Below are positions 19,987 to 36,679 of a stretch of 64,000 nt of DNA, piece after piece (the first letter of the stretch is position 1; every line of letters starts with the position of its first letter). The stretch is taken from assembly GCF_006716345.1 (NCBI RefSeq), contig NZ_VFOX01000001.1, forward strand, positions 1,240,001 through 1,304,000, in the 5' to 3' direction. The translations under genes were made by a program, and so were the position numbers. The notes below the pieces were generated by a model. The model did not search any database. It saw only the letters and a list, made by a program, of their open reading frames with translations, and had not been told where the DNA came from. Source of the stretch: Microbacterium saperdae. GTDB taxonomy: Bacteria; Actinomycetota; Actinomycetes; Actinomycetales; Microbacteriaceae.

Positions 19987-20892
19987 ATGCGCATCAGCGT
20001 CAGCTTCAGCGGCTTCGGACCGATCGAGACCACGCTTCGCACTGCGCGCGCTGCCGAGGCCGCCGGCCTCGACGGCGTGTGGTACTGCGAGCACGTGGGT
20101 TTCCGGGATGCGGTCGTCCCTGCATCGGTGATGCTCGACCGCCATCCCGATCTCGATGTGGGGCTCGTTGGGCCCGCGCCGGTGAGCCGGCACCCAGCGG
20201 TCCTGGCGATGGAGCTCGCCGACCTCAGCGAACTCGGACCCGGGCGCGTGCGCGCCCAGCTGGGCCTCGGCGACGCGCGGCTAGTCGGCAGGATCGGAGG
20301 CGTGAGCGGATCGCTCGCGCACGTGCGGGAGTATGTCGAGGCCACGCGCATGGCGCTTGCCGGCGAACCTCTGACAGGGAAGTGGGCGGGGCACGTGTTC
20401 GACGGCTACCAGACTCTGGCGCGTCCCGAACCCCCGGCACTGGACGTCATGGCGATCCGGCCGAAGATGCTGGAGTTATCTGCGCGCGTCGCCGACGGCG
20501 TTTCGCTGTCGACAGGAGCATCGGTGGAGTACTTGTCGGCCTCTGTCCAGAGGATCGAGCAGATCCTTGAAGAGTGCGGACGGGAACGCGGGAGCTTCCG
20601 TGTCACCGCGCAGGCCTTCGGCACCCTTGCCGACACTCAGAAGGATGCCGAGGATCGGCTACGTCCTACCCTCGGCATCTTTTCGCCGGACATTCTCGGT
20701 ATCCTCGCACCGAACTGCGCACCGGCAGAAGATGTCGCACGGATGGCCATCGCGACCACGCCGGAGAGGCTCGCCGAGCGCCTCGCGGAGTATCGGGACG
20801 CCGGTGTCGATGAGATCGCGCTCGATCTCTCCGCCCCGGACGATGAGATCGAAGACATCATGCGCGTTTTCGCCACGGCCCGAACCGTGTGA
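19987..20892 (+). CDS. LLM-class (F420/flavin) oxidoreductase A
   Basis: 301 residues, single-domain TIM barrel of the luciferase-like monooxygenase family. Recognisable parts are the N-terminal strand MRISVSFSG, GLDGVWYCEHVG, the ligand strand GLVGPAPVSRHPAVLAME, the loop GRVRAQLGLGD and the C-terminal DEIALDLS. It is paralogous to the LLM protein at 35699-36643, and each heads one of two facing operons. Because the operon also encodes F420-dependent G6P dehydrogenase and F420 biosynthesis, I infer that it uses F420H2 rather than FMNH2. The order of domains suggests a reductase or desaturase like MER. The substrate is unknown. Confidence 0.85.
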   Translation: MRISVSFSGFGPIETTLRTARAAEAAGLDGVWYCEHVGFRDAVVPASVMLDRHPDLDVGLVGPAPVSRHPAVLAMELADLSELGPGRVRAQLGLGDARLVGRIGGVSGSLAHVREYVEATRMALAGEPLTGKWAGHVFDGYQTLARPEPPALDVMAIRPKMLELSARVADGVSLSTGASVEYLSASVQRIEQILEECGRERGSFRVTAQAFGTLADTQKDAEDRLRPTLGIFSPDILGILAPNCAPAEDVARMAIATTPERLAERLAEYRDAGVDEIALDLSAPDDEIEDIMRVFATARTV

Positions 20893-20929: not shown

Positions 20930-21787
20930 ATGACATACTCGATCGTTGCGCGCGATGCCGAGACCGGTGAGATGGGCGTCGCCGTCGCATCTCACGCCTT
21001 TGCCGTGGGGAGCGCGGTCGCGTTCGGGGTCGCCGGCGTCGGCGCCGTCGCGACACAGGGCTCCCCCCTCGTCGGCGACGCGGAACGGCTGCTCGATGCC
21101 CTCGCCCGGGGAGAGCGCGCCGAAGACGCGCTCTCCGAACTCGTCTCGAGCAACGGCGGATCCCCGCTCCAACAGACCGCCGTGGTCGGCATGCACGGCG
21201 CTGCGGCCGCGCACACCGGAGCCTTCTGCGTGCGGTTCGCGGGACACAGCGTTGTCGACGAGGTCGCATGTCAGGGCAACCTCCTGGCGACGGACGGCGT
21301 CTGGGAGCGTATGCAGGAGGCGTACACCCACGCACGAGCTCCCTGGGAGGAGCGTCTTCTTAGTGCGCTCCGGGCCGCGCTCGCGGTCGGCGGCGACCTC
21401 CGGGGGCAACAGTCGGCAGCGCTCCTGATCGTCGGCCCGCACCGCGGCTCGCGACCTCGCATCGATCTGAGGGTCGACGACCACGCGGATCCCCTTGCGG
21501 AGATCCAGCGCCTGCTCGACCTCGACAGGGCCGATGCCCTGCTCAGGGCGGGGATCCGTGCGGTGACGGGTGGGGGCCGGGATGATGTCGTCGCCGCGCG
21601 CGATGCGTTGAACGCCGCTCAGGAGATCTTCGGACCCGAGAACCAGGAACCTACTTTCTGGGCAGGGGTCGTAGCCGAATCCTTGGGAGAGGGAAACGAC
21701 CATTATCCTGCCGACCCGTCCTGGCAGGAGCTCAGACTTCGTCTGCTGCAGAGGCACATTCCGGGCGGCGAAAAGGAGAACGCATGA
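20930..21787 (+). CDS. DUF1028-family Ntn-hydrolase
   Basis: 285 residues from ATG 20930 (GGAGG upstream). The start MTYSIVARDAETGEMGVAVA is diagnostic of DUF1028: removal of Met exposes Thr2, the expected N-terminal nucleophile of Ntn-hydrolases. Further blocks are GAVATQGSPL, QTAVVGMHGAAAAHTG, ACQGNLLATDGVWERM and the C-terminal helical region GGGRDDVVAARDALNAAQEI. Members hydrolyse amide-type bonds, but the substrates are mostly unassigned. It lies between the LLM and an amidinotransferase-fold hydrolase, with ATGA overlap to the latter, so it most likely cleaves an amide of the island substrate. Confidence 0.85.
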   Translation: MTYSIVARDAETGEMGVAVASHAFAVGSAVAFGVAGVGAVATQGSPLVGDAERLLDALARGERAEDALSELVSSNGGSPLQQTAVVGMHGAAAAHTGAFCVRFAGHSVVDEVACQGNLLATDGVWERMQEAYTHARAPWEERLLSALRAALAVGGDLRGQQSAALLIVGPHRGSRPRIDLRVDDHADPLAEIQRLLDLDRADALLRAGIRAVTGGGRDDVVAARDALNAAQEIFGPENQEPTFWAGVVAESLGEGNDHYPADPSWQELRLRLLQRHIPGGEKENA

Positions 21788-22674
21788 TCCAGATATCCAA
21801 TCCTTCTGACATTGCCCCTCTTCGCGAGGTCATCGTCGGCCCGTACAAAACGTTCACCTGGTGGGATCTGGTCTGGGGGTCGCTTCGCTACCCCGACGTG
21901 GCCAGCATCAGGTACGCCCGCAACAACACCGTCGCGGTGCCGAGGCATGAAATCGCCCGGCCACAGCACGAAGGATTCGTGCGGATGCTCGAAGAGCACG
22001 GCGTGCGGGTGCGCACTCTCGACAGCCTCGCCGACGTCTCCATCCAGCTTTACCCGCGCGACCTCGCTTTCGCCGTCGACGACGTCCTCTTCCTCGCGCG
22101 CTCCCGTGACCCGATTCGCCGGAAAGAGCAGCGGGCCCTCCGGCCCTACCTCGACGATATCTCTCGTGTCGAGACGTTGGCAGGCGGGCGGATCGAGGGC
22201 GGCGACGTCATCGTCACTGACGATGTTGTCCTCGTCGGCCTCAGCGAGGCCACCGATCTGACCGGCATCAGTGCTTTGCGCGAGGGGTTCGATCGCGCCG
22301 GGATCAGCCGTGAGATCCTGCCGATCGAGTTCTCGGGTCGAGGAGTCGTCCACCTGGACACCAAGTTCACGATGGTCGGCGCCCAACTCGGCTACATCCA
22401 CTCGGCATCCCTCACCCCGTATTCGCGTGCACAGCTGGCCGAGAGATTTGAGCTCATCGAGGCCGATGACACGGAGGCCCGCGGTCTCATGGTCAACACC
22501 GTCGCCCTCGCTCCTGACCGCATAGTCATCGATCACCGGGCCCGTCGTCTCGCCGAGGCGCTTCGCCTTCGCGGCATCGAACCGATCCGGCACGACTTCT
22601 CAGAGGTCACCAGGTTCCCGGGCGGTTTCCGCTGCGCGACGCTGCCGCTGAGGCGCGGCGAGAAAGAGGTATGA
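21784..22674 (+). CDS. Amidinotransferase-fold hydrolase (DDAH/arginine deiminase-like)
   Basis: 296 residues, start overlapping the previous stop (ATGA). The guanidine-modifying superfamily is seen from [10 protein letters not shown] (substrate carboxylates), [14 protein letters not shown], the catalytic His in [11 protein letters not shown], and the catalytic Cys284 in FRCATLPL near the C-terminus. Family members hydrolyse C-N bonds of guanidino or amidino groups (arginine, methylarginines) to ureido products and amines. The island encodes a second member (CtlX-like, 30051-30980), so the substrate or an intermediate probably carries a guanidine or amidine. The exact substrate is unknown. 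Confidence 0.85.
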
Positions 22675-22675
22675 G

Positions 22676-23704
22676 ATGTCCCTGACCATCGGGTACAAGG
22701 CCAGCGCCGAGCAGTTCGGTCCGCGGGAGTTGGTGGAACTCGGCGTCCTCGCAGAGCGACATGGCTTCGAGTCGGCCTTCGTCAGCGACCACTTCCAGCC
22801 ATGGCGTCACACGGGCGGACACGCACCTTTCTCTCTCGCGTGGCTCGCCGCGGTGGGGGAGCGGACCTCATCCATCGTGCTCGGCACCAGCGTGCTCACG
22901 CCGAGTTTCCGCTACAACCCCGCCGTTCTCGCCCAAGCGTTCGCCACACTCGGATCCTTGTATCCCGGTCGGATCGTCGCCGGTCTCGGGTCGGGCGAAG
23001 CGCTAAACGAGATCGCGACAGGAGCCCTCGACGACGCCGCGCCCTGGCCGGCTTTCGCGCAGCGTCTGGGCCGGCTGCGCGAGGCCGTGCGGCTCATGCG
23101 GCAGTTGTGGAGCGAGGAGCGGGTGAGCTTCTCGGGAGAGTACTTCCGCACGCGAGACGCATCGATCTACGACCGCCCCGACCGCCCCGTCCCGGTCTAC
23201 ATCGCGGCGGGCGGACCTGTCGTGGCACGGTACGCGGGTCGCGAAGCGGACGGACTCATCTGCACATCGGGGAAGGGCATGTCGTTGTACACGGAACGTC
23301 TCCTCCCGGCGCTCGACGAGGGAGCAGATGCCGCGGACCGTCCGGCGGCGTCGGTCGACCGCATGATCGAGATCAAGCTTTCGTACGAGACGGATCCGGT
23401 GCGGGCACGGGAGAACACCAGGTTCTGGGCGCCTCTGTCCTTGTCGGCCGAGCAGAAGCACACGATCTCCGACCCCGTCGAGATGGAGCGTGCGGCGGAC
23501 GCGCTGCCGATCGACCAGATCACCGCCCGATGGATCGTCGGCGATGATCCCGAGCGGATCGTGGACCAGGTACGCCCTTACGTCGACGCGGGATTCACTC
23601 ATCTGGTCTTCCACGCGCCCGGTGCAGAACAGCGACGGTTCCTGACGCTCTTCGAGCGTGATCTAGCGCCACGGATACGCGCGCTGTCACCTGTGGAGCG
23701 CTGA
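22676..23704 (+). CDS. fgd: F420-dependent glucose-6-phosphate dehydrogenase
   Basis: 342 residues. It aligns almost end to end with mycobacterial FGD1: [75 protein letters not shown] and [15 protein letters not shown]. The catalytic residues of FGD1 are conserved as His39, Trp43 and Glu108. The reaction oxidises glucose-6-phosphate to 6-phosphogluconolactone and reduces F420 to F420H2. It starts one base after the previous stop. Its presence inside the operon means the island carries its own F420H2 supply for the two LLM enzymes. Confidence 0.95.
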
Positions 23705-23796: not shown

Positions 23797-24576
23797 ATGC
23801 TGACCGTCTTCGCCCTCGAGGGAATCCGCGAGATAGAACCCGGAGACGACCTTGTCGAGACCATCCTCGGCACCGGTATCCGGCTCGAGAACGGCGACAT
23901 CCTCGTCGTCACCTCGAAGATCGTCTCCAAGGCGGAAGGCCGGTACGTGCGGGCCACCGACCGCGAGGAGGCGATCACAGCCGAGACGGTCCGTACGGTT
24001 GCCTCCCGAACGTCCCACGGCCACACGACACGCATCGTCGAGAACCGTCTGGGTATCGTCTCCGCCGCAGCCGGGGTCGACGCGAGCAACACGCCCGAGG
24101 GCTGGGTGCTGCTGCTGCCCGTCGATCCGGACGCGAGTGCGCGAGACCTCGCCGCAAGGCTGCGCGATGCCACAGGCGCCCAGGTCGGCGTGATCGTCAG
24201 TGATACCCTCGGCCGCCCCTGGAGGCAGGGACAGGCGGACGTCGCCATCGGTGGGGGAGGCGTGCGGATGATCCTCGATCTGCGCGGCACCGTTGACGCC
24301 GGAGGCAAGCCTCTCACGGTTACGGCAGTATGCGTGGCGGACGAGCTCGCGGCGACCGCTGACCTCGTCAAGGGCAAAACCGACGGAAAGCCCGTCGCAG
24401 TAGTCCGCGGTCGTGGCGACCTCGTGGGAGGACTGGATCTTCCTGGTGCGGCGGGCGTGGTTCGGCGACGCGAGGCAGACATGTTCTGGCTGGGCACCGC
24501 CGAGGCGCTGGAGCAAGGGTACCGGGAAGGGTACTCGGCGGGCGCGCAGGCAGTTTCCCAGAGGCCGCGACCATGA
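23797..24576 (+). CDS. cofE: Coenzyme F420:L-glutamate ligase (CofE / FbiB N-terminal domain)
   Basis: 259 residues from ATG 23797 behind AAGGAGG. CofE motifs are complete: [55 protein letters not shown] and [18 protein letters not shown]. The enzyme adds glutamates to F420-0 with GTP. Mycobacterial FbiB has a second, FMN-binding domain of about 190 residues that matures dehydro-F420; that domain is absent here, and I see no separate copy in the window. The 92-base gap upstream (23705-23796) shows no strong promoter. Confidence 0.92.
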
Positions 24577-24619: not shown

Positions 24620-26896
24620 ATGTACGTCTCCGCGGAGGCGACCCAAGTCGAGAGGCTTCTCGGCGCTCGAGGCGACGCCCTCGACGATCTTCTCGACCAC
24701 GCATCGAGCCTGCGGGACGAGGGGCTGAATAGGATCGGCCGCCCGAAGACCATCACCTATTCGAGGAAGGCCTTCATCCCGCTAACTACCCTCTGCCGTG
24801 ACCGCTGCCACTACTGCACCTTCGTGGACACCCCCTCGCAACTGCGTCGCAAAGGACAGCGCCTCTACATGTCGGAGGAGCAGGTGCTCACCGTCGCACG
24901 ACGTGGCGCGGCCCTCGGCTGCAAGGAAGCGCTACTCACACTGGGGGATCGGCCGGAGAGCCGGTGGCCGCAGGCCAGGGAATGGCTCGACGAGCATGGA
25001 TTCGCGTCCACGCTCGACTATGTCGGAGCGATGGCCCGCCTGATACGGGAGGAGACGGGCCTGCTACCGCATCTCAACCCCGGCGTGATGAGCCACGACG
25101 AGATGGTCACACTTCGACCGACGGCCCCGTCGATGGGAATGATGCTCGAGACGACGTCGCGCGCCCTCTTCACGGAGCCCGGCCGAGCGCACTACGGCTC
25201 GCCGGACAAGGATCCGGCAGTCCGCCTCCGGGTCATCGAAGACGCGGGTCGAGCGCGGATCCCGTTCACCACTGGTGTACTGATCGGGATCGGCGAGTCT
25301 CTGGCGGACCGTGCGGAGTCCCTGCTGAGGCTTCGTGATCTGCACGAACGATACGGTCACATCCAGGAGGTGATCGTTCAGAACTTCCGTGCCAAGTCGC
25401 ACACCGTCATGCAGTCGGTGCCCGACGCGCACAGACGGGACTACCTCGCGGCCGTCGCGGTCGCGAGAATCGTTTTCGGGCCCGACATGCGCATCCAAGT
25501 CCCTCCGAACCTGTCTGACCCCACGGAGTTCGAGTCGCTGATCCGGGCCGGCATCGATGATTGGGGCGGCGTGTCACCGCTGACGGCGGACCACGTGAAT
25601 CCCGAACGGCCGTGGCCGCAGATCGATGACCTCGCCGCGTTGACCGCCGGTGCCGGTTTCCGGCTGCGGGAGAGGCTCACCGTGCATCCCTCATATCTGC
25701 GGGAGCCCACCGCCTGGATCGACGACGCCCTCGTGCCTGCGGTCCTTACACTGGCCGATCCGCTGACCATGCTCGCCAGCGAGCGAGAGCCGTCGTCACC
25801 GATGCGCGGGCACGGGGAGAACGAGCGCGGGAGTCGCGTGCGTCGGAGCGGACAGAGCATCGTCGACCGTGCCAGCGCTGATCCGGAGAATGTCGACGAT
25901 GCGGAGTGGGCGCACCTTCTGCATCTCACCGGGGATGGGCTCGAACGACTTGCCGTCGTGGCGGACGAGGTACGCCGTTTCACCGTCGGCGAGTCGATCG
26001 GCCTCGTCGCGAACCGCAACGTGACCTCGACATACTGGAGCGCCCGTCCGATGCCGGGCAGGTTCACCATCGCCGGGTTGGCCGCGATCGTCGACGACGC
26101 CGCAGAAACCGGCGCGACGGAGATCTGTCTCCAAGGGCAGATCCCGAGGGAGGAACCAGACGACGGATACCTGCAGCTCGCGCGCATCGTCAAAGCGACG
26201 TCCCCCGACCTCCACCTGCACGCCTTCCGGCCCGGCGACATCTGCGACCATGCGGACCGCATGGGCGTGACCATCGACGACGCGGTGAGAGACCTCCGGG
26301 AAGCGGGCGTCGACACGATCCCCGGAACCGGCGTGAAGATCCTCTCGGAGAGAGTGCGCGCGCGCAGCGGACCGGAAGATATCCCCGTCGACCGGTGGAT
26401 CGACGTCATCATCGCGGCGCACCGTGCCGGGCTGCGTTCTTCGTCGGTCATTCACTACGGCCACGCAGAGTCGGCGGATGAACGGGTGGCGCACCTCCGG
26501 AAGATCATCGAGATCCAGCGCCTGACGGGCGGATTCACCGAGATGGTGCCGATGCCCCATCCGCACGGGGTGCCCTTGGTCTCAGGGCGATCACCAGAAG
26601 ATGAGCATCGAGCCATGTTCGCGGTGGCCAGGCTGATGCTCTCCTCAACCGTTCCGCACATTCAAGTGCCGTGGACGCGGCTGAACGACCGACACATCCT
26701 GGCCGTGCTCCGCTCCGGCGGAGACGACCTCGGTGGCACCCTCTTCGACGGGCGCATCCTCCCCGCCATCGGTGCGGAACACGGCCGGGAGATGCGGCCC
26801 TCCCGTGCCCGTGGCATCACCGCAAGTCTCTTCCGCCCCCTGCGGCAACGCACCACCGACTATAAGGATGTCCCTGCGGAACGGCGGATCCTATGA
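24620..26896 (+). CDS. fbiC: FO synthase (FbiC) with a degenerate CofH half
   Basis: 758 residues from ATG 24620, 43 bases after cofE. The N-terminal CofG half (about 1-390) is normal: the radical-SAM cluster CRDRCHYC, then LGDRPESRWP, HLNPGVMSHDE and GIGESLADRAESLL. The C-terminal half (about 430-758) aligns with CofH through VADEVRRFTVGE, LVANRNV, GATEICLQGQI, DTIPGTGVKILS, GLRSSSVIHYGH and GGTLFDG. The place where CofH has its CxxxCxxC cluster motif, just after NRN, reads VTSTYWSARPMPG and has no cysteine at all (about 26013-26050). FO synthesis needs both halves, so this protein should do only the CofG step unless another CofH exists. Its stop overlaps the BVMO start. Confidence 0.9.
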   Translation: MYVSAEATQVERLLGARGDALDDLLDHASSLRDEGLNRIGRPKTITYSRKAFIPLTTLCRDRCHYCTFVDTPSQLRRKGQRLYMSEEQVLTVARRGAALGCKEALLTLGDRPESRWPQAREWLDEHGFASTLDYVGAMARLIREETGLLPHLNPGVMSHDEMVTLRPTAPSMGMMLETTSRALFTEPGRAHYGSPDKDPAVRLRVIEDAGRARIPFTTGVLIGIGESLADRAESLLRLRDLHERYGHIQEVIVQNFRAKSHTVMQSVPDAHRRDYLAAVAVARIVFGPDMRIQVPPNLSDPTEFESLIRAGIDDWGGVSPLTADHVNPERPWPQIDDLAALTAGAGFRLRERLTVHPSYLREPTAWIDDALVPAVLTLADPLTMLASEREPSSPMRGHGENERGSRVRRSGQSIVDRASADPENVDDAEWAHLLHLTGDGLERLAVVADEVRRFTVGESIGLVANRNVTSTYWSARPMPGRFTIAGLAAIVDDAAETGATEICLQGQIPREEPDDGYLQLARIVKATSPDLHLHAFRPGDICDHADRMGVTIDDAVRDLREAGVDTIPGTGVKILSERVRARSGPEDIPVDRWIDVIIAAHRAGLRSSSVIHYGHAESADERVAHLRKIIEIQRLTGGFTEMVPMPHPHGVPLVSGRSPEDEHRAMFAVARLMLSSTVPHIQVPWTRLNDRHILAVLRSGGDDLGGTLFDGRILPAIGAEHGREMRPSRARGITASLFRPLRQRTTDYKDVPAERRIL

Positions 26897-28368
26897 CTGT
26901 CGTCGACGTCGATGTGCTCGTGGTCGGCGCGGGCTTTTCCGGGATAGCGGCGGCGATGATGCTGAAGCAGACGGGGCTGTCCTTCCAGATCCTCGAACGG
27001 GCATCCACCTTGGGAGGAACGTGGAGGGACAACGTTTATCCCGGGGTAGCCTGCGACGTCCCGTCGCACCTCTACAGCCTCGCCACCCATCCCGATCCCC
27101 GGTGGTCCCGTCTCTTCGCGCCCGGGGCTGAGATCCGAGAGTACCTCGAGCGCGTCGCCAGTGCAGAGGGGATAGACGCGCGCATGAGATTCGACTCTCC
27201 CGTCCGCCGCGCATCCTGGACGGGAAGTCAGTGGCTGGTCGAGGTCGGAGGAACGAATCCGCGTACCCTCTCCTCCCAGTCGATCGTGCTGGCGTGCGGT
27301 CGGCTGACCGAACCACAGTTTCCGCGGATACCGGGGCTCGGTGGCTTCCCGGGGCCGACGATGCACACCGCTCGCTGGTCGCCGGACACGGAACTGCGCA
27401 ACCGTCGCGTCGCGCTCGTCGGAACCGGCGCCAGCGCGGTGCAGCTCCTGCCGGAGCTGGTGGCCGAGGGCGCGACCGTGACGCTGTTTCAGCGCACGCC
27501 CCCCTGGGTGCTCCCGAAGGGGGACCGGGCGATCACGCCGGAAGAGAGGGAGAGGATGTCCTCCGTCCCCGGTGCGCTGGAGGAAGTCAGGAAGCAGCTG
27601 TTCGATGAGGGCGAGGCCCGATACGCGTCCAGGTCCGGGGAACGGCAGGCGACGAAGGCGGCGCGGGAGGCGGCACGATCCCACCTCAGGTCCCAGGTCG
27701 CCGATCCGGGGCTGCGGGAAAGCCTGATGCCTCGCTATCCGTTCGGCTGCAAACGGGTTCTTCTGTCCGACGACTTCTATCCGGCTCTCGCCTCCCCGGC
27801 CGTCACCCTCGAGCCCAGTGCGCTGGCCGCGATCAGGGGTGAGGAGCTCGTCGCGGCGAGCGGGAGCATCCATCGCGCCGATCTGCTCGTGTTCGCGACC
27901 GGCTTCGAGACGATCCATCAACCGTACGCGGATATCGTCGAGGGAGAGGACGGGTACACGCTGGCTGAGCATTGGTCGTCGGGGATGGCATCGGTGGGGT
28001 CCACCCTGGTCGCGCGCTTCCCGGATCTTTACATCCTCAACGGGCCGAACGCCGCACTCGGACACAACTCCTCGCTTCTGATGATCGAAGAGCAATGCCG
28101 CCTCATCGAGCGCTGCGTGAGGGATCGTCGTCGGCCCGTCCGGGTGAGCACGCACGCGCAGGCTTCCTACACCGAGGGCATCATCCGCAGAAGCCGGGGC
28201 ACGCCCTGGGTGTCGGGTGGATGCACAAACTGGTACGTCGACGAGCGCAACGGGCGACTGAGCCTGCTCTGGCCTGGCACGGTTGGTGACTTCCGCGAGG
28301 AGATCGACAGGATCTTTCCGATCGGTGCTGACGGGCGGGTACTGGCCGAGGCGGAGGCTGCACGATGA
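26893..28368 (+). CDS. Baeyer-Villiger-type / flavin-containing monooxygenase
   Basis: 491 residues, ATGA overlap with fbiC. Two Rossmann motifs (VVGAGFSGIAA at the N-terminus for FAD, LVGTGASAVQ for NADPH) flank the BVMO fingerprint in FPGPTMHTARWSPD. Other family blocks are LGGTWRDNVYPGVACDVPSH and LNGPNAALGHNS. It uses NADPH and oxygen to insert an oxygen beside a carbonyl or to oxygenate a heteroatom. It is embedded between F420 genes, which shows that the operon serves catabolism and not only cofactor supply. A ketone made upstream would yield an ester for the alpha/beta-hydrolase domain encoded at 33211-35214; that is inference. Confidence 0.9.
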   Translation: MTVVDVDVLVVGAGFSGIAAAMMLKQTGLSFQILERASTLGGTWRDNVYPGVACDVPSHLYSLATHPDPRWSRLFAPGAEIREYLERVASAEGIDARMRFDSPVRRASWTGSQWLVEVGGTNPRTLSSQSIVLACGRLTEPQFPRIPGLGGFPGPTMHTARWSPDTELRNRRVALVGTGASAVQLLPELVAEGATVTLFQRTPPWVLPKGDRAITPEERERMSSVPGALEEVRKQLFDEGEARYASRSGERQATKAAREAARSHLRSQVADPGLRESLMPRYPFGCKRVLLSDDFYPALASPAVTLEPSALAAIRGEELVAASGSIHRADLLVFATGFETIHQPYADIVEGEDGYTLAEHWSSGMASVGSTLVARFPDLYILNGPNAALGHNSSLLMIEEQCRLIERCVRDRRRPVRVSTHAQASYTEGIIRRSRGTPWVSGGCTNWYVDERNGRLSLLWPGTVGDFREEIDRIFPIGADGRVLAEAEAAR

Positions 28369-29009
28369 GCGTGGTCGCTCCGGCGTGGACGATCATCATC
28401 CCGCTCAAGGACTTCCGTGTTGCGAAGTCCCGACTCCTTGGTGTCGGTCGTCCGAGACTGGCACGCGCCATGGCGGCGGACACGCTCAGAGCCGTGGCTG
28501 CCTGCCGGTCGGTGGAGGAGATCGTCGTGGTCGCTTCGAACGTCGAGAGCGTGAGTCCGCTGCTTCCCCGTAAGGCACGGGTGGTCGCTGAAGGTGCACC
28601 CGGAGGCGTCAACAAGGCGATCGCGATCGGTCGGTCCTCGACGAGTCGCCGGCGACGTCGCGCGGCGCTGGTCGGTGACCTTCCTTTCCTGACCCCCGAG
28701 GATCTCGCCGAGGCGCTCGTACAGGCTGCGGAGTGCCGAGCCGGGGTCGTGCCGGACAAAGAGGGCACGGGCACGACCATGGTCACCTGGAATGCGGAGG
28801 TCGAGATCATGACCCACTTCGGTCGAGGTTCCTTTCACAGACACACCGATGCGGGATACGCGCCGCTGTTGCTCCGAAACACGTCCGGCGTTCGATGGGA
28901 TGTCGATGTTCGCGAAGACCTTGCGCCGGCGCTTCCTGCTGAAGGGACGGAGACCCTTCGGGTGATCGCGTCGTTGGCGCGACGGGTCGACGTGAAGGAG
29001 TGGCGATGA
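28365..29009 (+). CDS. cofC: Phospholactate/phosphoenolpyruvate guanylyltransferase (CofC/FbiD)
   Basis: 214 residues with ATGA overlap to the monooxygenase. The nucleotidyltransferase start IIIPLKDFRVAKSRLLGVGR and the motif VGDLPFLTPEDL are diagnostic of CofC/FbiD; PDKEGTGTTMV and FHRHTDAGYAP complete the active site. It charges 2-phospholactate or PEP with GMP for the CofD step. In actinobacteria the PEP-using form (FbiD) is usual; specificity cannot be read here. A run of Arg codons (TSRRRRRAAL) in the middle is unusual but does not touch a motif. Confidence 0.92.
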   Translation: MSVVAPAWTIIIPLKDFRVAKSRLLGVGRPRLARAMAADTLRAVAACRSVEEIVVVASNVESVSPLLPRKARVVAEGAPGGVNKAIAIGRSSTSRRRRRAALVGDLPFLTPEDLAEALVQAAECRAGVVPDKEGTGTTMVTWNAEVEIMTHFGRGSFHRHTDAGYAPLLLRNTSGVRWDVDVREDLAPALPAEGTETLRVIASLARRVDVKEWR

Positions 29010-30004
29010 ACGCCCGCACGCCTCGCATCACCGTGCTCGCCGGCGGGGTCGGCGGCTCTCGTTTTCTCGTGGGGATGCGCGAGACGGTGCGCCGTCGCGG
29101 GATCGACCGCGCCCAGGACCATCTCGTTGCGATCGTGAACACGGGAGACGACCTCTGGTTGTCGGGGATCAGGCTCCAGCCCGATATCGATTCCATCCTG
29201 TACGCGCTGGCCGGGGTGAACGACGCGGAGCGTGGATGGGGACGCCGTGAGGAGACGGAACGGGTCGCTCGGGAGCTTCGAAGCTGGGGAGCCGGGTGGC
29301 CGTGGTTCACGCTGGGAGACCTCGATCTCGGAACGCACATCGCCCGCACGGGATGGCTCCGCGACGGTCTGACGCCCACGCAGGTGGTGGAGCTCCTGGG
29401 TCGTCGATGGGATCTCGGGGTTCGCATGCTCCCGATGACCGACACGGAGGTCGATACGCTCGTCACCGTGCGAGACGGCGACGATGTGCGCCAGCTGCAC
29501 TTTCAAGAGTGGTGGACGAGGCATCGAGCGGCGCTGACCCCCCTACGTTTCGATAACCCCGGTATCGACAGCGCCCTTCCCGCGCCGGGGGTGACCGAGG
29601 CGATCCTCGACGCAGACGTCGTCGTCCTGGCCCCGTCGAACCCGGTCGTCTCGATCGGTCCGATCCTTGCCGTCCCGGGGATGCGCACCGCGCTCCAGTC
29701 CACGAAGGCGCGGGTCGTGGGTGTGTCTCCCATCATCGACGGCGCCGTGGTCAGGGGCATGGCGGACATCTGCCTGGAGGCCCTCGGCGTCGCCACGAGT
29801 GCAGATACGGTGGCGGCCCTGTACGGTGCGCGAGAGCGTGGCGGGCTCCTCGACGCCTGGCTCGTGGCCGAGGAGGATCGAGCGCTCGTCCCCGCCATCC
29901 GTGAGATCGGCATTCGTGCTCTCGTCGCGCCCCTGTGGATGCACGGCGGCACGGCGTCCGCGGATGTCGCGGAAGCCGCGCTCGGCGCAAGCGGGTTCGA
30001 ATAG
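29006..30004 (+). CDS. cofD: 2-phospholactate (PEP) transferase CofD/FbiA
   Basis: 332 residues from ATG 29006 (ATGA overlap with cofC; an in-frame GTG at 29000 is less likely). Motifs are VLAGGVGGSRFLVGM at the N-terminus, VNTGDDLWLSGIRLQPDIDS, FTLGDLDLGTHIART and PSNPVVSIGPILAVPGM. It transfers the activated three-carbon phosphate to FO to make (dehydro)F420-0. It closes the operon. The next gene is convergent after 46 bases with no strong hairpin between them. Confidence 0.94.
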   Translation: MNARTPRITVLAGGVGGSRFLVGMRETVRRRGIDRAQDHLVAIVNTGDDLWLSGIRLQPDIDSILYALAGVNDAERGWGRREETERVARELRSWGAGWPWFTLGDLDLGTHIARTGWLRDGLTPTQVVELLGRRWDLGVRMLPMTDTEVDTLVTVRDGDDVRQLHFQEWWTRHRAALTPLRFDNPGIDSALPAPGVTEAILDADVVVLAPSNPVVSIGPILAVPGMRTALQSTKARVVGVSPIIDGAVVRGMADICLEALGVATSADTVAALYGARERGGLLDAWLVAEEDRALVPAIREIGIRALVAPLWMHGGTASADVAEAALGASGFE

Positions 30005-30050: not shown

Positions 30051-30980
30051 TCAGGACACGGCGGGCAGCGCATCCCGGCGCCCGAGGCGGATCTCGGCGA
30101 GCATGCAGCGGACGGAACCTCCGGCGCGCTCGATCGTCGGTATGTCCAATCGAACTAGCTTCGCCCCCTTCTCCAGCGCGCGTCGCTGATCGCGCGTCAA
30201 TGCAGTATGCGCTCGTGTAGACATCGCGATGATCGGGCCGGAAGGGGCATCCAATTCCAGGATGTTGGCGGCGAAGTCGCCGATCTGCGCGACGTCGAGG
30301 TCGATGACCGTGCGTTCCTGCGTCTCGAGGGCTTCTCGCAGCCGCCCGCGCTCGTCATGGTGGGGGAGGAGCTCGGGACACAGGACCGCGAAGCTCTCGC
30401 CGATGCTCAGCAGGACATTGGTGTGGTACACCGGCAATCCCTCCGAATCGGCCGTATCGAAGCGATGTGGCCGATACCCGAGGAGGTCGCACACCTGCTC
30501 GAACAGCCCGTCGTCGGTGCGCTGCGAGCGGGCCATGAACGCGATACGGGTGGAGTGATCGAAGACGATCGCCCCGGTGCCCTCCAACGCGCGGCCTTCA
30601 TCTTCAGCGGCGGTCAAGTCGACGAGTTCAGAGACCTCGAACTCGTGGCGAAGATGCTCGATGACGTCCGCACGGCGCTCGCTCCTCCGATTGGGCGCAT
30701 GCATGGGGTACAGGACGAGCTTTCCGTCCGCATGGGTCGAGAACCAGTTGTTGGGGAACACCGCGTCCGGACGATCGACGCGATCATCGTCGAAGAGCTC
30801 GACCTCGACACCGTGTCGGCGAAGGACGAAGGCGGCCTGATCGACCTCGTCGCGCGCTCGCCGAGAGACCTCTGAGGCGGTGACGTCGTCGGCGCTTTGG
30901 AAAGCGTTGTCGCTCAGAGTTTGAGGATTGACATGAAAATGGTGCGGTCGGATCATCACGACCGTGCGTGCCCCTCCCAT
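30051..30980 (-). CDS. CtlX-like amidinotransferase-fold hydrolase
   Basis: 309 residues from ATG 30980; longer in-frame starts are TTG 30998 or internal ATG 30956. The guanidine-modifying fold is shown by IRPHHFHVNPQT, RPDAVFPNNWFSTH, ALEGTGAIVFDHS, the catalytic His region LPVYHTNVLLSI, and the Cys in GGSVRCMLAEI near the C-terminus. These blocks are those of CtlX, a citrulline/arginine-related hydrolase. It ends the minus operon and starts about one base after the ornithine cyclodeaminase stop. Together with that enzyme it suggests processing of an arginine/citrulline-like intermediate. Actual substrate uncertain. Confidence 0.85.
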   Translation of the reverse strand: MGGARTVVMIRPHHFHVNPQTLSDNAFQSADDVTASEVSRRARDEVDQAAFVLRRHGVEVELFDDDRVDRPDAVFPNNWFSTHADGKLVLYPMHAPNRRSERRADVIEHLRHEFEVSELVDLTAAEDEGRALEGTGAIVFDHSTRIAFMARSQRTDDGLFEQVCDLLGYRPHRFDTADSEGLPVYHTNVLLSIGESFAVLCPELLPHHDERGRLREALETQERTVIDLDVAQIGDFAANILELDAPSGPIIAMSTRAHTALTRDQRRALEKGAKLVRLDIPTIERAGGSVRCMLAEIRLGRRDALPAVS

Positions 30981-30981
30981 C

Positions 30982-32010
30982 TCAACCAATGGGGGCAAGG
31001 GGACCGACGAGGCCGAACAGGTCTTTGGGATCGTCCGGGGCCACGATCAGATCGATCGGCGTCGTATACCCGGTTCCGGCGACCTGGTCGCGGACGAACC
31101 GGAGCGCGGAGAAGTCCTCGATGGCGAAGCCGACGGAGTCGAAAGTCGTGACCTCGTCCCGGCCGACGCGACCCGGTTCCGTCCCCGTCAGCACCCGCCA
31201 CAGTTCTGTGACAGGGAAGCTCTCTGGCATCTGCTGGATTTCGCCTTCGATGCGCGTCTGCGGCGGATACTCCACGAACACCCTGCCGAGGGAGAGGATG
31301 GCAGGATCGAGTTCGGTCTTGCCCGGGCAATCGCCCCCGAGGGCGTTGATGTGGGTGCCCGGATCGATGTCCGACGCGGAGAGCACCACTGCGCGGGTCT
31401 TGTCCGCTGTGCATACCGTCACGATGTCGGCGCCGCGTGCGGCATGGCCGGCAGAAGACGCGACCGTCACCTCGAAGCCGAGGGGGAGCAGGTTGCGCGA
31501 GAGCTTGACCACGGCGTCAGGGTCGGTGTCGAACACGCGGACGCTCTCAATACCGAGCATCTCCCGGAACGCGATGGCCTGGAACTCCGACTGACTGCCG
31601 GCCCCCACCAACGCCATCACGGCGGAGTCGGGGCGAGCGAGTGCGCGGGCCGCCAACGCCGACGTCGCCGCCGTGCGCAATGCCGTGAGCAGGGTCATCT
31701 CAGCGACGAAGGTCGGATACCCGTTGTGTACATCGGCGAGGACGCCGAACGCGGTGACGGTCTGGAACCCGCGGGCCGGATTCTCCGGATGACCGTTGAC
31801 GTACTTGAACGCGTACTCTTCCCCGTCGCTCGTCGGCATCAGCTCGATCACGCCGAACGGCGTATGGCTCGCCACTCGAGGAACCTTGTCGAAGCGCTCC
31901 CAACGTCGAAAATCGTCATCGAGATACTCGACCATGCCGCGTATGATCGTGCCCACCCCGGCATCCCGGACCCACCGCGTCATGGACCGCACATCGATCA
32001 GGCTTGTCAT
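30982..32010 (-). CDS. Ornithine cyclodeaminase / mu-crystallin family protein
   Basis: 342 residues from ATG 32010, preceded by GAGGAGGA. NAD-binding and substrate motifs include KYVNGHPENPARGFQT (substrate lysine region), the Rossmann part VMALVGAGSQSEFQAIAF, VRVFDTDPDAVVK, ADIVTVCTADKTRAV and GTHINALGGDCPGKTELD. The family includes ornithine cyclodeaminase (ornithine to proline plus ammonia), lysine cyclodeaminase and imine reductases, so the name is a family label. In this setting a role in closing or reducing a cyclic imine or amino-acid piece released by the hydrolases is plausible. Confidence 0.85.
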   Translation of the reverse strand: MTSLIDVRSMTRWVRDAGVGTIIRGMVEYLDDDFRRWERFDKVPRVASHTPFGVIELMPTSDGEEYAFKYVNGHPENPARGFQTVTAFGVLADVHNGYPTFVAEMTLLTALRTAATSALAARALARPDSAVMALVGAGSQSEFQAIAFREMLGIESVRVFDTDPDAVVKLSRNLLPLGFEVTVASSAGHAARGADIVTVCTADKTRAVVLSASDIDPGTHINALGGDCPGKTELDPAILSLGRVFVEYPPQTRIEGEIQQMPESFPVTELWRVLTGTEPGRVGRDEVTTFDSVGFAIEDFSALRFVRDQVAGTGYTTPIDLIVAPDDPKDLFGLVGPLAPIG

Positions 32011-32080
32011 TGCTTCCTCCTCGGGTTCAGTGTCTGAGGCACCCGCCTGTGGTGGCGGCGTACACGGGATATCCGGTCGC

Positions 32081-33214
32081 TCAGGACAGCAGCCGGGACG
32101 CGAAGGACGCATGCATCGCTGCACCGACCGCGAGACAGTCGTCGTCGAGGCGGAACTGCGAGGTATGCACCGGCGAGGCCTCCGGCGAGCCGGCTCCGAT
32201 GAACAAGAGCGCGGACGGCACGCGATCGGCGATGAGGGCGAAGTCCTCCGACGAGGTCAACGGCTCCGGCATCTGAAGGAACCGACCCTCCGTGATCTGG
32301 TCGGCGACGGCGGCCGCGTCGGCGAACACCACGGCATCGTTCACGAGGACGGGGGCGTATGGTCCGGACCAGTTCACGTCGACTCCCGCCGTCGTGGTGA
32401 CGACTCGCTCGAGCGCCGCACGGCCTGCCTCTTCGCCCGTGGTGGAATGCGCCCGGATGGTCCCTCTGATCACCGCGGAGTCGGAGATGACGTTGCTTGC
32501 CGAGCCGGTCGTGAGCAGGGTCACGGAGAGGACGAAGCCAGAGCTCTCCGGCTGCTCGTCGACATCGGCGAGCTCGAGCGCCAGTCGTGCGGCGCCGAGC
32601 AGCGGAGTTTCCCGCGTCCCGGCCGTGGAACCGTGGCCCCCGGCACCGCGGACGACCAGTTCGAACGGCGTGCTCGACGCCATCTGCGTACCCGGTCGCC
32701 CCGCAAGGCATCCCACGGGGAGTTGCGGTGCCACATGCAGCGCGAACGCCGCGTCGATGCCGTCACAGATTCCGGCGTCGACCATCAGAGCCGCACCACC
32801 ATGCCCTTCTTCTCCCGGCTGGAAGACCAGGCGTACCGTCCCTTGCAGAGTGTCGCGTTTCTCGCACAGAATGTGTGCAGCCCCCAGAAGCATGGCGGTG
32901 TGCGCATCGTGCCCGCAGGCATGCATCACGCCAGGGGCGTCCGCAAAGCAATCCGCACCCGGAGCCTCGTCCAGCGGGAGCGCGTCCATGTCTGCCCTGA
33001 GGAGCACCGTCGGACCGTCGCCGCCGGAGATGACGGCCGTGACGAAGAGATCGTCGTCGGTGCTGATGATGTCGACCCCGATATCCTCCAGCACCTCGCG
33101 GACGTAGCGGCGGGTGCGGGGCAAATCGAGACCGATCTCCGCGCGCCGATGGAGCTCCTGACGCCAATGGCGCATCGATGCGGTGAGGCGGTCCGAGATA
33201 TCCCGAGGCTTCAT
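32081..33214 (-). CDS. M20-family amidohydrolase (hippurate/IAA-amino acid hydrolase-like)
   Basis: 377 residues, ATGA overlap with the upstream fusion gene. Metal-binding motifs are typical of peptidase M20D: LRADMDALPL, MHACGHDAHTAML, VFQPGEEGHGGA, the dimerisation-domain entry GAGGHGS, and the C-terminal SSEDFA. These enzymes cleave N-acyl amino acids. It follows a gene that encodes a different M20 subtype, so the operon has two distinct amide hydrolases. A 70-base gap separates it from the cyclodeaminase gene. Confidence 0.9.
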   Translation of the reverse strand: MKPRDISDRLTASMRHWRQELHRRAEIGLDLPRTRRYVREVLEDIGVDIISTDDDLFVTAVISGGDGPTVLLRADMDALPLDEAPGADCFADAPGVMHACGHDAHTAMLLGAAHILCEKRDTLQGTVRLVFQPGEEGHGGAALMVDAGICDGIDAAFALHVAPQLPVGCLAGRPGTQMASSTPFELVVRGAGGHGSTAGTRETPLLGAARLALELADVDEQPESSGFVLSVTLLTTGSASNVISDSAVIRGTIRAHSTTGEEAGRAALERVVTTTAGVDVNWSGPYAPVLVNDAVVFADAAAVADQITEGRFLQMPEPLTSSEDFALIADRVPSALLFIGAGSPEASPVHTSQFRLDDDCLAVGAAMHASFASRLLS

Positions 33215-35214
33215 TGATGCGCTCGCAGCACGCGGTCTGTGAGAGTGGCGAGTGCGCGCACTCCGCCGGCCAGGAGGTCGTCGTCTGTGTGCTCGTTCGC
33301 GGCGTGACTGACCCCGCCGCGGCTGGGAACGAACAGCATGACGGTCGGCACGCCGGCGGCGGAGATCTCGCAGGCATCATGAAGCGGCCCACTGACAAGG
33401 GCGTCGTGTTCTCCGGTGATCGCTGAGGCGACGGTGGAGGCTTCCCCGACGAGGTCGGACGAGAAGCGCACCGGCGGTGTGGTCCACACCGGTGTCTGTT
33501 CGCACTCGACCTCCTCCTCCTCGCTGATGCGGTGGAACTCCTCAGAGATCTCCGACCACAGCGCCTCCAGCTCTCCCGCGTCCTGATGGCGCACGTCGAG
33601 CATGAGCGTCACCTGCGCGGCGATCGCGGTGGGGGTGGGGGGCGTGGCGGAGAGCACTCCGCAGGTGATCAGACCGTTGCGCGACAGTGCCGCCGTCCGG
33701 GCGGCGACCAGGGCGCGCGAGGCAACCATGACCGGATCGTGGCGCAGGTCCATCGGAGTGCCTCCGGCATGCCCCGGCGTGCCGGTCAGAACCAGTCGAT
33801 GCCGTTGCACGCCGAGGGAACCGGTGACAGCGGCGAGATCCTGCCCGGTCTTCTCGAGAACGGGCCCCTGCTCGATGTGAAGCTCGAGGTAAGCCGCCAC
33901 GTCGTCGAGGTCCGCCGTCGCGAGGTGGATGCGTGTCAGGTCGACGCCGTTCTCCTTCAGCACGTCCTCACTGCGGCGACCGTCGGAGTCGACGAGTCGC
34001 CGGAGCGCATCCACGTCGAGGGCGCCCGTGAAGGCCGCAGACCCATAAAGGCTCCGCCCGAAGCGCGCGCCTTCTTCATCGGCCCAGTCGGTCAGGCGCA
34101 CGGTCAGAGGCGGGGTGCCCTGAGCAGCAAGAGTGCGCAAGACTTCGAGGCCCGCCATTACTCCGAACGCACCGTCGAGATTGCCGCCGTCGGGCACCGA
34201 GTCGAGGTGGCTTCCGATCATCAGCGTGCGAGACGAGGTGCCCGGCAGCTCGGCGTGGTGGTTTCCCGCTTCGTCCGTCCAGTGACGGACCCCGGGAATC
34301 TCGTCGAGCAGAGTCGAGAAGAGTGCGCGAGCATCGCGCCAGCGGGCGCTCCAGCACAGTCGCTGCGCCCCGCGATCGTCCTGTGTCAGGCGTCGCAGCG
34401 ACTCGAGGTCCGCGATGGTCCGTTCGGGACGCACCGGCGTGCTCCAGAAGCCCGTCAGCACGGACGCGATGCGGTCGGCATCCTCGAGGTGCGGGAGGTG
34501 TCCGAGGCCGGCCATCGTGAGGGGCACGCTGCCTGCCGCTTCGGCGAGGCTCGCTACCGCTTCGGGCGGACACGTCAGATCTTCGCGGCCACCCAGGACG
34601 AGGAGAGGGTGGGGAGTGGCCGAGGCGAACGAGTCCAACGGGGTGCAGAACGCCATCTCGAGAATCCCTGTGGCAGTCTCGACGTCATTGCTCGACGCAC
34701 GTTCGATGGCTTGTCTCACCAGATCGGCCGGCGCATCAGGACGGTAGGAGACGTGGGGGATGACCTCGTTGAAGAATGCGCGGGGGCCGACGGCGCGGAG
34801 CGCGGCTGCGGCCTCTTCGAAACGAGCCCGGTTGCCACCGAGGGACGTTCCCACGGTGGTCACCGTGCTGACCCTGTCGGGGTGCGCCGCCGCGTAGGCG
34901 AGAGCCACGCCGCCGCCGAAGGACGACCCGACGACGTGAGCGCGGTCGATGCCGCACGCCGTCAGAAGCGCCTGAACGGACTGCACGCACACGTCAATCG
35001 AAAGCGGGCGCACCTCATGAGACCCCCCGTGCCCGGGAAGGTCGATGGCGAGAACGGAATGGTCTTCGAGACGCTCGGATAGCGCCAGCCATTCCGCAGC
35101 CTCGCCGTTCGCTCCGTGCACGAGCACGACGTGTGACGAGCCTTCGGGCCCGAGACGCCGCCACCCGGTGACCGTGCCGTTCGCCGTCGCCGCTGATACC
35201 GGGGTCGCGTTCAC
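33211..35214 (-). CDS. Fusion of an alpha/beta-hydrolase and an M20 carbamoylase/allantoate amidohydrolase-like domain
   Basis: 667 residues from GTG 35214. Residues about 1-265 are an alpha/beta-hydrolase: oxyanion strand VVLVHGANGEAAEW, nucleophile elbow VVGSSFGGGVAL, acid in GGREDLTCP and the catalytic His in GLGHLPHLEDADR. Residues about 275-667 are an M20 hydrolase of the N-carbamoyl-amino acid/allantoate group: IGSHLDSVPDGGNLDGAFG, WADEEGARFGRSLYGS, LELHIEQGPVLE, GTPGHAGGTPM, GPLHDACEI and HAANEHTDDDL. Both active sites look complete and there is no stop or frameshift between them. I know these as separate proteins, so the fusion is notable; it suggests ester/lactone opening followed by amide or carbamoyl hydrolysis on one intermediate. 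Confidence 0.88.
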   Translation of the reverse strand: MNATPVSAATANGTVTGWRRLGPEGSSHVVLVHGANGEAAEWLALSERLEDHSVLAIDLPGHGGSHEVRPLSIDVCVQSVQALLTACGIDRAHVVGSSFGGGVALAYAAAHPDRVSTVTTVGTSLGGNRARFEEAAAALRAVGPRAFFNEVIPHVSYRPDAPADLVRQAIERASSNDVETATGILEMAFCTPLDSFASATPHPLLVLGGREDLTCPPEAVASLAEAAGSVPLTMAGLGHLPHLEDADRIASVLTGFWSTPVRPERTIADLESLRRLTQDDRGAQRLCWSARWRDARALFSTLLDEIPGVRHWTDEAGNHHAELPGTSSRTLMIGSHLDSVPDGGNLDGAFGVMAGLEVLRTLAAQGTPPLTVRLTDWADEEGARFGRSLYGSAAFTGALDVDALRRLVDSDGRRSEDVLKENGVDLTRIHLATADLDDVAAYLELHIEQGPVLEKTGQDLAAVTGSLGVQRHRLVLTGTPGHAGGTPMDLRHDPVMVASRALVAARTAALSRNGLITCGVLSATPPTPTAIAAQVTLMLDVRHQDAGELEALWSEISEEFHRISEEEEVECEQTPVWTTPPVRFSSDLVGEASTVASAITGEHDALVSGPLHDACEISAAGVPTVMLFVPSRGGVSHAANEHTDDDLLAGGVRALATLTDRVLRAHQ

Positions 35215-35698: not shown

Positions 35699-36643
35699 TC
35701 AAAGGACGGTGGTGCGGCTGTCGCGCGAGGCGGTCAGGCTGCCGAGAGCGGCAGCGAGCAGCCCGGGGGCGTGGTGGATGTCGAGCGCAACCTCATCCAC
35801 GCCGGCATCGGCGTACTCCGAGAGGCGGGCGCCGAGATCCTCCGGCGTCCCCGCGATACTCATCCGCTCGGCATCGCGGCGCGGATCCAGTCCCGGGGCG
35901 AGGATCGCGAGCACCGCGGGGGAGAAGCGCGCGAGACGGGAAGCCGCGTTCTCGACGGCGCCGGCGAGCGTCTTGTCGACGCTGCCGATCGCCTGCGCGT
36001 TGATTCGGAAAGTGTCACGGGGGCGACCGATCTCCTTCAGAATCTTCTCGATCTTGCTGACGGCATGCTTGATGTAGTCGATCGAGGCCCCGGTCGACAG
36101 AGACACGCCATCGCCGGTCCGCGCGGCGAGCTCGAGCATTCGCGGACGGATCGCCATGATGTCCAGTGGGACCGAGGACGGTTCGCGGAGCTGGAAATCC
36201 TCGAATAGGTGTCCGGCCCAGACACCCGACATGCGCTGACCCGAAAGGGTGCCTCGCACGGATTCGACGTACTCTCGGACCAGTGCGACCGAATTGCTGC
36301 CCCCGCCGATGCGTTGCATGAGCGCGGTTCCGCCCAGACCGAGCTGCGCCCGTAGTCGCCCCGGAGCGATCTCGGCAAGGCTGGCGAACTCCATCGCGAG
36401 AACTGCGCCGTGTCTGCTCACCGGCGCGGGGCCGACGATGCCCACGTCCAGACCCGGATACCGATCGAGAAGCAGCGCGGTCGGTACCACTGCGTCGTGC
36501 CAACCTACATGCTCGCAGTACCACAACCCATCTAGCCCGGCGGTGTGAGCCGCCTCCGCGATCTCCATGCTCTCGCGCAGCGGAGCTATGCCACTGAAGC
36601 TAAGCGAAAGACGGAGGCGTCTGCGCGACGAGTTATCGGCCAT
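35699..36643 (-). CDS. LLM-class (F420/flavin) oxidoreductase B
   Basis: 314 residues from ATG 36643. It is paralogous to the LLM protein at 19987: LRLSLSFSG, GLDGLWYCEHVGWHDAVVP, VGIVGPAPVSRHGAVLAME, GRLRAQLGLGG, AIRPRMLELAARTGDGVSLS and DEVALDIH. Differences are spread over the chain, so this is an old duplication. The ATG lies 7-8 bases after the -10 hexamer (36651-36656), so the transcript is probably leaderless, and the TTGGCCAA box lies directly before the start codon. An upstream in-frame start at 36679 would lie in the -35. Likely an F420H2-dependent reductase or oxidase. Confidence 0.85.
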   Translation of the reverse strand: MADNSSRRRLRLSLSFSGIAPLRESMEIAEAAHTAGLDGLWYCEHVGWHDAVVPTALLLDRYPGLDVGIVGPAPVSRHGAVLAMEFASLAEIAPGRLRAQLGLGGTALMQRIGGGSNSVALVREYVESVRGTLSGQRMSGVWAGHLFEDFQLREPSSVPLDIMAIRPRMLELAARTGDGVSLSTGASIDYIKHAVSKIEKILKEIGRPRDTFRINAQAIGSVDKTLAGAVENAASRLARFSPAVLAILAPGLDPRRDAERMSIAGTPEDLGARLSEYADAGVDEVALDIHHAPGLLAAALGSLTASRDSRTTVL

Positions 36644-36679
36644 TTGGCCAAAATAACCGATCGCCAACGTCACGGTCAA
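36644..36679 (-). promoter_or_regulatory. Promoter and TTGGCCAA operator of LLM B, shared with the divergent TetR gene
   Basis: On the minus strand: -35 TTGACC (36679-36674), 17-base spacer, -10 TTATTT (36656-36651), TTGGCCAA (36651-36644). The TetR gene starts 58 bases away on the other strand, so the same box could give autoregulation. Confidence 0.8.

Follow-up and report, generated by a model that had tools for sequence, protein, structure and literature searches.

In canonical FO synthesis, a 5'-deoxyadenosyl radical of CofH breaks tyrosine down to a p-hydroxybenzyl radical, this radical is added onto ribityldiaminouracil, and ring closure is the task of CofG, as outlined in passages of a published review (PMC8498797). 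According to this 2021 review, FO synthesis relies on two radical-SAM domains in all F420 producers studied, by a mechanism that it calls universal (PMC8498797). In the open-licence literature, to which the search was confined, no title or abstract opening among those listed dealt with a CofH lacking the cysteines or an FO synthase coupled to a monooxygenase, and excerpts from papers gave no account of F420 production by a strain with the gene pair described below. For F420 in a Gordonia, the sole find in such excerpts was a table entry for a deazaflavin-dependent nitroreductase.

The locus described here is like FbiC and the CofG plus CofH FO synthase (NF006687, TIGR03550, TIGR03551) in its cluster context, its intact CofG and its CofH barrel. 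It differs in that the CofH half has neither a CxxxCxxC motif nor the second Gly of QGG and is paired with a monooxygenase. The barrels of ThiH, NosL, MqnE and PylB are radical-SAM enzymes with a cluster, whereas the domain in the window (the whole 64,000-nucleotide stretch of Microbacterium saperdae DNA that was analysed) is without cluster ligands. Type I Baeyer-Villiger monooxygenases (BVMOs) include cyclohexanone, phenylacetone and steroid monooxygenase, and the window protein differs from these in that it adjoins F420 genes. At one known pathway step, the oxygen-dependent enzyme HemF replaces the radical-SAM enzyme HemN. The present locus would be alike in having an aerobic enzyme in place of a radical-SAM enzyme at one step and unlike in that the radical-SAM fold stays, without its cluster motif, joined to a putative oxygen-using enzyme.

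The F420 cluster of the window

The F420 genes form a compact cluster on the + strand and were named with curated models. The genome has 2 contigs and a listed completeness of 100%. Among named homologues of the window FbiC, the nearest are from Microbacterium. The features are as follows:

22676..23704, + strand: F420-dependent glucose-6-phosphate dehydrogenase (TIGR03554, 574.4, cut-off 420)
23797..24576, + strand: cofE, F420-0 gamma-glutamyl ligase (TIGR01916, 217.8, cut-off 180.65)
24620..26896, + strand: fbiC-like gene of 758 aa, a CofG half joined to a CofH half without the cysteines (open reading frame, motif scan, NCBIfam)
24620..25774, + strand: CofG half, residues 1-385 (TIGR03550, 482.8 bits, cut-off 213.35)
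24794..24817, + strand: CRDRCHYC, intact CofG radical-SAM motif, residues 59-66 (motif scan)
25802..26893, + strand: CofH-like half, residues 395-758 (barrel fold in the model, cluster ligands lost)
26012..26110, + strand: stretch from NRN to just before GATEICLQG, in place of the CxxxCxxC loop (alignment)
26893..28368, + strand: type I Baeyer-Villiger-like flavin monooxygenase, 491 aa (relatives are cyclohexanone and phenylacetone monooxygenases; model)
28365..29009, + strand: cofC-like guanylyltransferase (TIGR03552, 115.1, cut-off 105)
29000..30004, + strand: cofD, FO transferase (TIGR01819, 297.7, cut-off 257.45)

A CofH half without the cluster motif

The first-pass annotation had described an FbiC with a complete CofG motif, a CofH half that had lost its radical-SAM cysteines and an open frame that did not look like a simple frameshift. 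This description held up. The frame is open from the ATG at 24620 through 758 aa, and relatives show the same absence. CRDRCHYC at residue 59 was the sole CxxxCxxC found when another was sought across all 758 aa, and the TIGR03550 score of 482.8 agrees with an ordinary CofG half. After NRN (residues 465-467, nt 26012-26020) the CofH half reads NRNVTSTYWSARPMPGRFTIAGLAAIVDDAAETGATEICLQG, and 13 alignment columns are absent from it compared to cysteine-bearing CofH. Its TIGR03551 (CofH) score of 295.2 lies below the NCBIfam cut-off of 374.1; the other cysteine-free rows scored 252-316 (5/5), and the cysteine-bearing rows scored 464-535 (5/5).

The differences are not confined to the loop. G507, the second Gly of QGG, is kept in cysteine-bearing rows, and the commonest residue there in cysteine-free rows is L, at a frequency of 0.28. 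We take the end of the QGG strand to be GGE-like and SAM-binding. Among 171 positions that are at least 90% conserved in cysteine-bearing CofH, cysteine-free CofH keeps 68 and changes 103, so the alteration exceeds the cluster loop and there is room for a different reaction. R537, E617, G711 and P715 are among the residues specific to cysteine-free rows (40/40). The model of the window CofH half is predicted to keep the CofH/Mqn barrel fold, with MqnE as the nearest solved fold. Because defining features were found to be lacking, this protein should not be filed as radical-SAM CofH.

A second FbiC or CofH gave no match elsewhere in the organism's own genome (2 contigs, listed as 100% complete). 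Of the 10 Pfam radical-SAM matches in this genome, FbiC accounts for two, and another, of low score, falls in a protein at 19987-20892 that is luciferase-like by eye; a CofH query against its radical-SAM genes matched FbiC alone.

Cysteine-free CofH in actinobacteria

A survey of databases for proteins with the same gap, which the first-pass annotation had proposed, found the gap to be common to a large actinobacterial group and not peculiar to the window gene. Only the CofG motif was present in 120/120 of the best matches of the window FbiC (best 120 of 8000 scored, the first being itself), and the 119 others among these best 120 of 8000 were 58-73% identical to it and, where named, mostly Microbacterium. 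Any Cys between NRN and GATExCxQG was seen in just 2/120 of these best matches (best 120 of 8000); for the four rows without GATExCxQG, Cys was sought in the 35 residues after NRN. The cluster motif was likewise absent from 120/120 of the best matches listed for a free-standing CofH, that of locus L045, which is a 100% match to a Gordonia database protein; this twin is included in the count. These matches, where named, were from Gordonia, Williamsia, Nocardia, Rhodococcus and others. The proteins listed as P0121-P0240 were called, where named, FO synthase, FO synthase subunit 2 or 5-amino-6-(D-ribitylamino)uracil-L-tyrosine 4-hydroxyphenyl transferase. Since cysteine-free CofH carries FO synthase and CofH names, automatic annotation hides the difference.

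One branch of an unrooted CofH tree (SH-aLRT 100) parts 54 cysteine-free from 44 cysteine-bearing sequences; five similar cysteine-bearing rows were omitted and 10 of the 120 free-standing database proteins were taken in. The midpoint drawn on this tree sits within the cysteine-free set. It is likely that the cysteines were lost once, in descent from an ancestor that had them; what speaks for this is their presence in the wider family, not the tree. For 11 nearby pairs, the dN/dS of cysteine-free cofH was 0.10-0.31. In the same pairs, CofG gave 0.06-0.20, mostly somewhat below CofH, and the monooxygenase 0.09-0.41, a range similar to that of CofH. Purifying selection acts on the cysteine-free barrel. 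The CofG motif was intact in all cysteine-free loci checked (39 + 39 more).

Two loci carry labels at odds with their position in both the CofH and the monooxygenase trees. The contig of L007 bears the label Acidobacteria, yet the locus falls beside Amnibacterium; L012, labelled Streptomyces sp. NP160, falls beside Quadrisphaera. These may be wrong labels (mis-binning or misnaming) or cases of gene transfer.

The adjacent flavin monooxygenase

In the window, the start of the monooxygenase gene overlaps the stop of fbiC by ATGA. The protein is ~27% identical to solved type I BVMOs, and these were the best structural matches of its predicted model (pLDDT 90). The predicted structure has the type I BVMO fold and the catalytic Arg position, which we take to be that of PAMO Arg337. 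FxGxxxHxxxW was found in 44/44 paired monooxygenases and the full FxGxxxHxxxW(P/D) in 35/44, the window protein having S after W; the full motif is presumably the type I Baeyer-Villiger monooxygenase fingerprint. K287-R288 was invariant in 34/34 aligned monooxygenases. In an unrooted BVMO tree, one branch parts the 44 paired proteins from 20 other actinobacterial BVMO-like proteins, which were hand-picked among the matches listed.

The monooxygenase gene lies downstream of cofH on the same strand in 78/78 distinct cysteine-free loci, and it was seen in the fetched stretch of 0/71 cysteine-bearing loci, three of which (L048, L059 and L187) end just downstream of cofH, with less than 2 kb shown. 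These loci descend from common ancestors and do not represent separate events or independent tests, so a Fisher value computed from such counts is not a probability. L003 and L115, being one locus, were counted once. In the main set, the gene was on the same strand in 43/43 cysteine-free loci (42 distinct) and was seen in the fetched stretch of 0/49 cysteine-bearing loci. Its estimated start was within ~100 nt of the cofH stop in 42, many of them overlapping; the exception was L002, at ~710 nt. For a Gordonia-like genus, the corresponding counts were 35/35 cysteine-free loci and 0/21 of the cysteine-bearing loci fetched. Where cofG is separate, even on the opposite strand, cofH and the monooxygenase are still together (L010-L013, L045, L075, L076 and 35 Gordonia-like loci). 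The gene pair was found in contigs named Salinibacterium, Aeromicrobium, Nesterenkonia, Herbiconiux, Amnibacterium and Quadrisphaera, in the organism's own Microbacterium-like genus and in the Gordonia-like genus; proteins named Williamsia, Nocardia and Rhodococcus come from a protein listing of cysteine-free CofH alone.

Beyond F420 genes, no neighbour was common to more than two of 11 chosen cysteine-free loci, and an enzyme that would form a ketone or aldehyde from tyrosine did not recur among these 11 neighbourhoods. A cruder neighbour screen found some families in 9-17 cysteine-free loci, and these were taken as same-genus synteny or wrong-frame ORFs. PF04075, the F420H2-quinone-reductase family, had no match in the organism's own genome, but control genomes were equally silent, which makes this absence uninformative. 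The adjacent flavin monooxygenase is the likely partner of cysteine-free CofH. The first-pass annotation had supposed that a partner might be encoded elsewhere on the chromosome; no such CofH was found in the genome, and the monooxygenase next door had been left unconnected.

Distribution of the two kinds of CofH among genomes

Among 34 relatives from the same genus, 18 have fbiC with the adjoining monooxygenase gene and 16 have neither; fbiC was cysteine-free in all 18 pair-bearing relatives (15 + 3). A draw of 394 genomes from the class was also scored for the monooxygenase, with four first-look candidates per genome. The 12 top genomes (at least 419 bits) were the 12 verified cysteine-free genomes, and every other listed score was 406 or lower. 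A CofH-family match was present in 269/394 genomes and part of these were fetched, so the cysteine-free genomes number at least 12.

In the Gordonia-like genus, each of 59 genomes had exactly one kind, 36 cysteine-free and 23 canonical, and all 59 were verified by sequence (56 + 3). The 49 genomes of an Aeromicrobium-like genus, which takes this name from L003, comprised 8 with the cysteine-free kind (8/8 verified), 21 with the canonical kind (assigned by score, 17 of them fetched and motif-verified), 20 with neither and none with both. These genus patterns are the pattern of two interchangeable solutions to one step. One of the 18 cysteine-free genomes tested, G132, also carries a canonical FbiC: its locus L135 (C3) has cysteine-free FbiC with the monooxygenase, and L039 (C8) has canonical FbiC (CYVGCRFC) without it. 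Since this genome holds both kinds, the exchange is not absolute.

Discussion

The explanation that we favor, with a probability of about 0.8 on the sequence evidence, is that cysteine-free CofH and a monooxygenase using O2 and NAD(P)H would together take over from radical-SAM CofH in FO synthesis, with CofG carrying out the second step. The replacement of the canonical CofH step by the gene pair is well supported by genomics. We infer the dependence on O2 and NAD(P)H, that on O2 from the enzyme family, and also that the product of the pair is unchanged FO. Many actinobacteria, the present one among them, appear to make F420 with a cluster-free CofH-like protein beside a flavin enzyme, which suggests a second, oxygen-dependent route for an FO step thought to have one chemistry.

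The step replaced would be the first, in which the 4-hydroxybenzyl group of tyrosine is brought to C5 of 5-amino-6-ribitylaminouracil, and its replacement would involve two proteins and use oxygen. Of these proteins, the cysteine-free CofH barrel would be the binding and coupling partner, and the Baeyer-Villiger-like flavoprotein would draw on NAD(P)H and O2 for a two-electron oxidation in place of SAM cleavage. CofG, with its radical-SAM motif intact, would close the ring to FO, and CofC, CofD and CofE would complete F420. Lacking a cluster, the barrel should be unable to form a tyrosine-derived radical; what would have to be supplied is the two-electron oxidation, together with a 4-hydroxybenzyl group in the form of an electrophile or radical. 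Phenylacetone monooxygenase inserts oxygen next to the benzyl group of phenylacetone. The BVMO of the pair may oxidise a tyrosine-derived 2-oxoacid or aldehyde (e.g. 4-hydroxyphenylpyruvate), and benzyl migration would yield a 4-hydroxybenzyl ester. Loss of oxalate or formate would convert the ester to p-quinone methide. Within the CofH barrel, the nucleophilic C5 of the diaminouracil would capture this species, and the product would be the intermediate that canonical CofH forms. This scheme, with a BVMO-made ester and quinone methide and a cluster-less radical-SAM barrel acting as a non-radical C-C coupling enzyme at C5, is put forward tentatively. The donor is a guess, because no enzyme that would provide a ketone or aldehyde from tyrosine recurs among the 11 neighbourhoods.

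Other readings of the locus were weighed. It is unlikely that CofG is bifunctional and performs both radical steps, with cysteine-free CofH binding substrate and the monooxygenase serving as an accessory that, for example, oxidises a reduced FO product. The retained barrel in the model and the intact CofG motif, both in the cysteine-free loci checked (39 + 39) and in 120/120 proteins (best 120 of 8000), would fit this division of labor, but the monooxygenase tracks cofH and not cofG, which can be separate or on the opposite strand, and it occurs at no cysteine-bearing CofH locus examined. Slightly less probable again is an operon that makes a modified deazaflavin such as hydroxylated FO, the monooxygenase being an obvious tailoring enzyme. 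The change at 103/171 canonical positions and the residues specific to cysteine-free rows (R537, E617, G711, P715) speak for such a product. However, tailoring leaves the loss of the CofH motif and the exchange with canonical FbiC unexplained. The first-pass annotation had already regarded a changed deazaflavin as remote, and it is disfavored here because the cluster has normal CofC, CofD and CofE genes and a high-scoring F420-dependent glucose-6-phosphate dehydrogenase, and because the two kinds of CofH interchange within genera.

We consider it very improbable that the CofH half is dead, with FO taken up from neighbours and the pathway decaying. The missing cluster motif and the lack of a second CofH in the genome could be read in this way, but the motif is equally absent in both lists of 120 best matches, dN/dS is 0.10-0.31 with 68 canonical positions kept, and the partner gene overlaps or is closely spaced. 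The first-pass annotation had offered either a CofG with a dead or scaffold CofH half in need of a partner, or a new function; the need for a partner or new chemistry stands, and purifying selection argues against a passive relic. A sequencing or assembly error has a negligible chance of being the cause and was rejected, as the cluster motif is likewise absent in relatives, comprising 77 other distinct loci and database proteins among the matches listed.

Returning to the replacement of the CofH step by the gene pair, the data indicate that a widespread actinobacterial set does the first FO step another way. Cysteine-free CofH probably works like CofH, judging by its position, and together with its neighbour deserves a family of its own. 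Databases still name it FO synthase or CofH. If the proposal is true, it would mean a new enzymatic C-C bond formation and a new use for a cluster-less radical-SAM barrel; under the tentative quinone methide scheme, this fold would have turned to polar chemistry without leaving its step in the pathway. The replacement might also ease F420 production in aerobic hosts, and counts of fbiC would misstate how F420 is made.

Genes around the F420 cluster

Genes of catabolic look surround the F420 cluster in the window between 15310 and 36679, transporters among them. All were named by eye except the deiminase at 21784-22674, for which a curated model was used:

19987-20892 and 35699-36679, - strand: two luciferase-like oxidoreductases
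21784-22674: arginine-deiminase/dimethylargininase-like protein
30051-30998, - strand: second deiminase/DDAH-like protein
30982-32124, - strand: ornithine-cyclodeaminase-like protein
32081-33214, - strand: amidohydrolase
33211-35214, - strand: hydrolase-carbamoylase-like fusion

They may belong to a pathway that acts on a nitrogen-rich compound and depends on F420. Two other cysteine-free fbiC loci, L002 (10420-12874) and L004 (1666-5029), have amidase-, hydantoinase- and luciferase-like neighbours in common (66-75% identity, named by eye), which suggests nitrogen-heterocycle breakdown adjoining the F420 genes.
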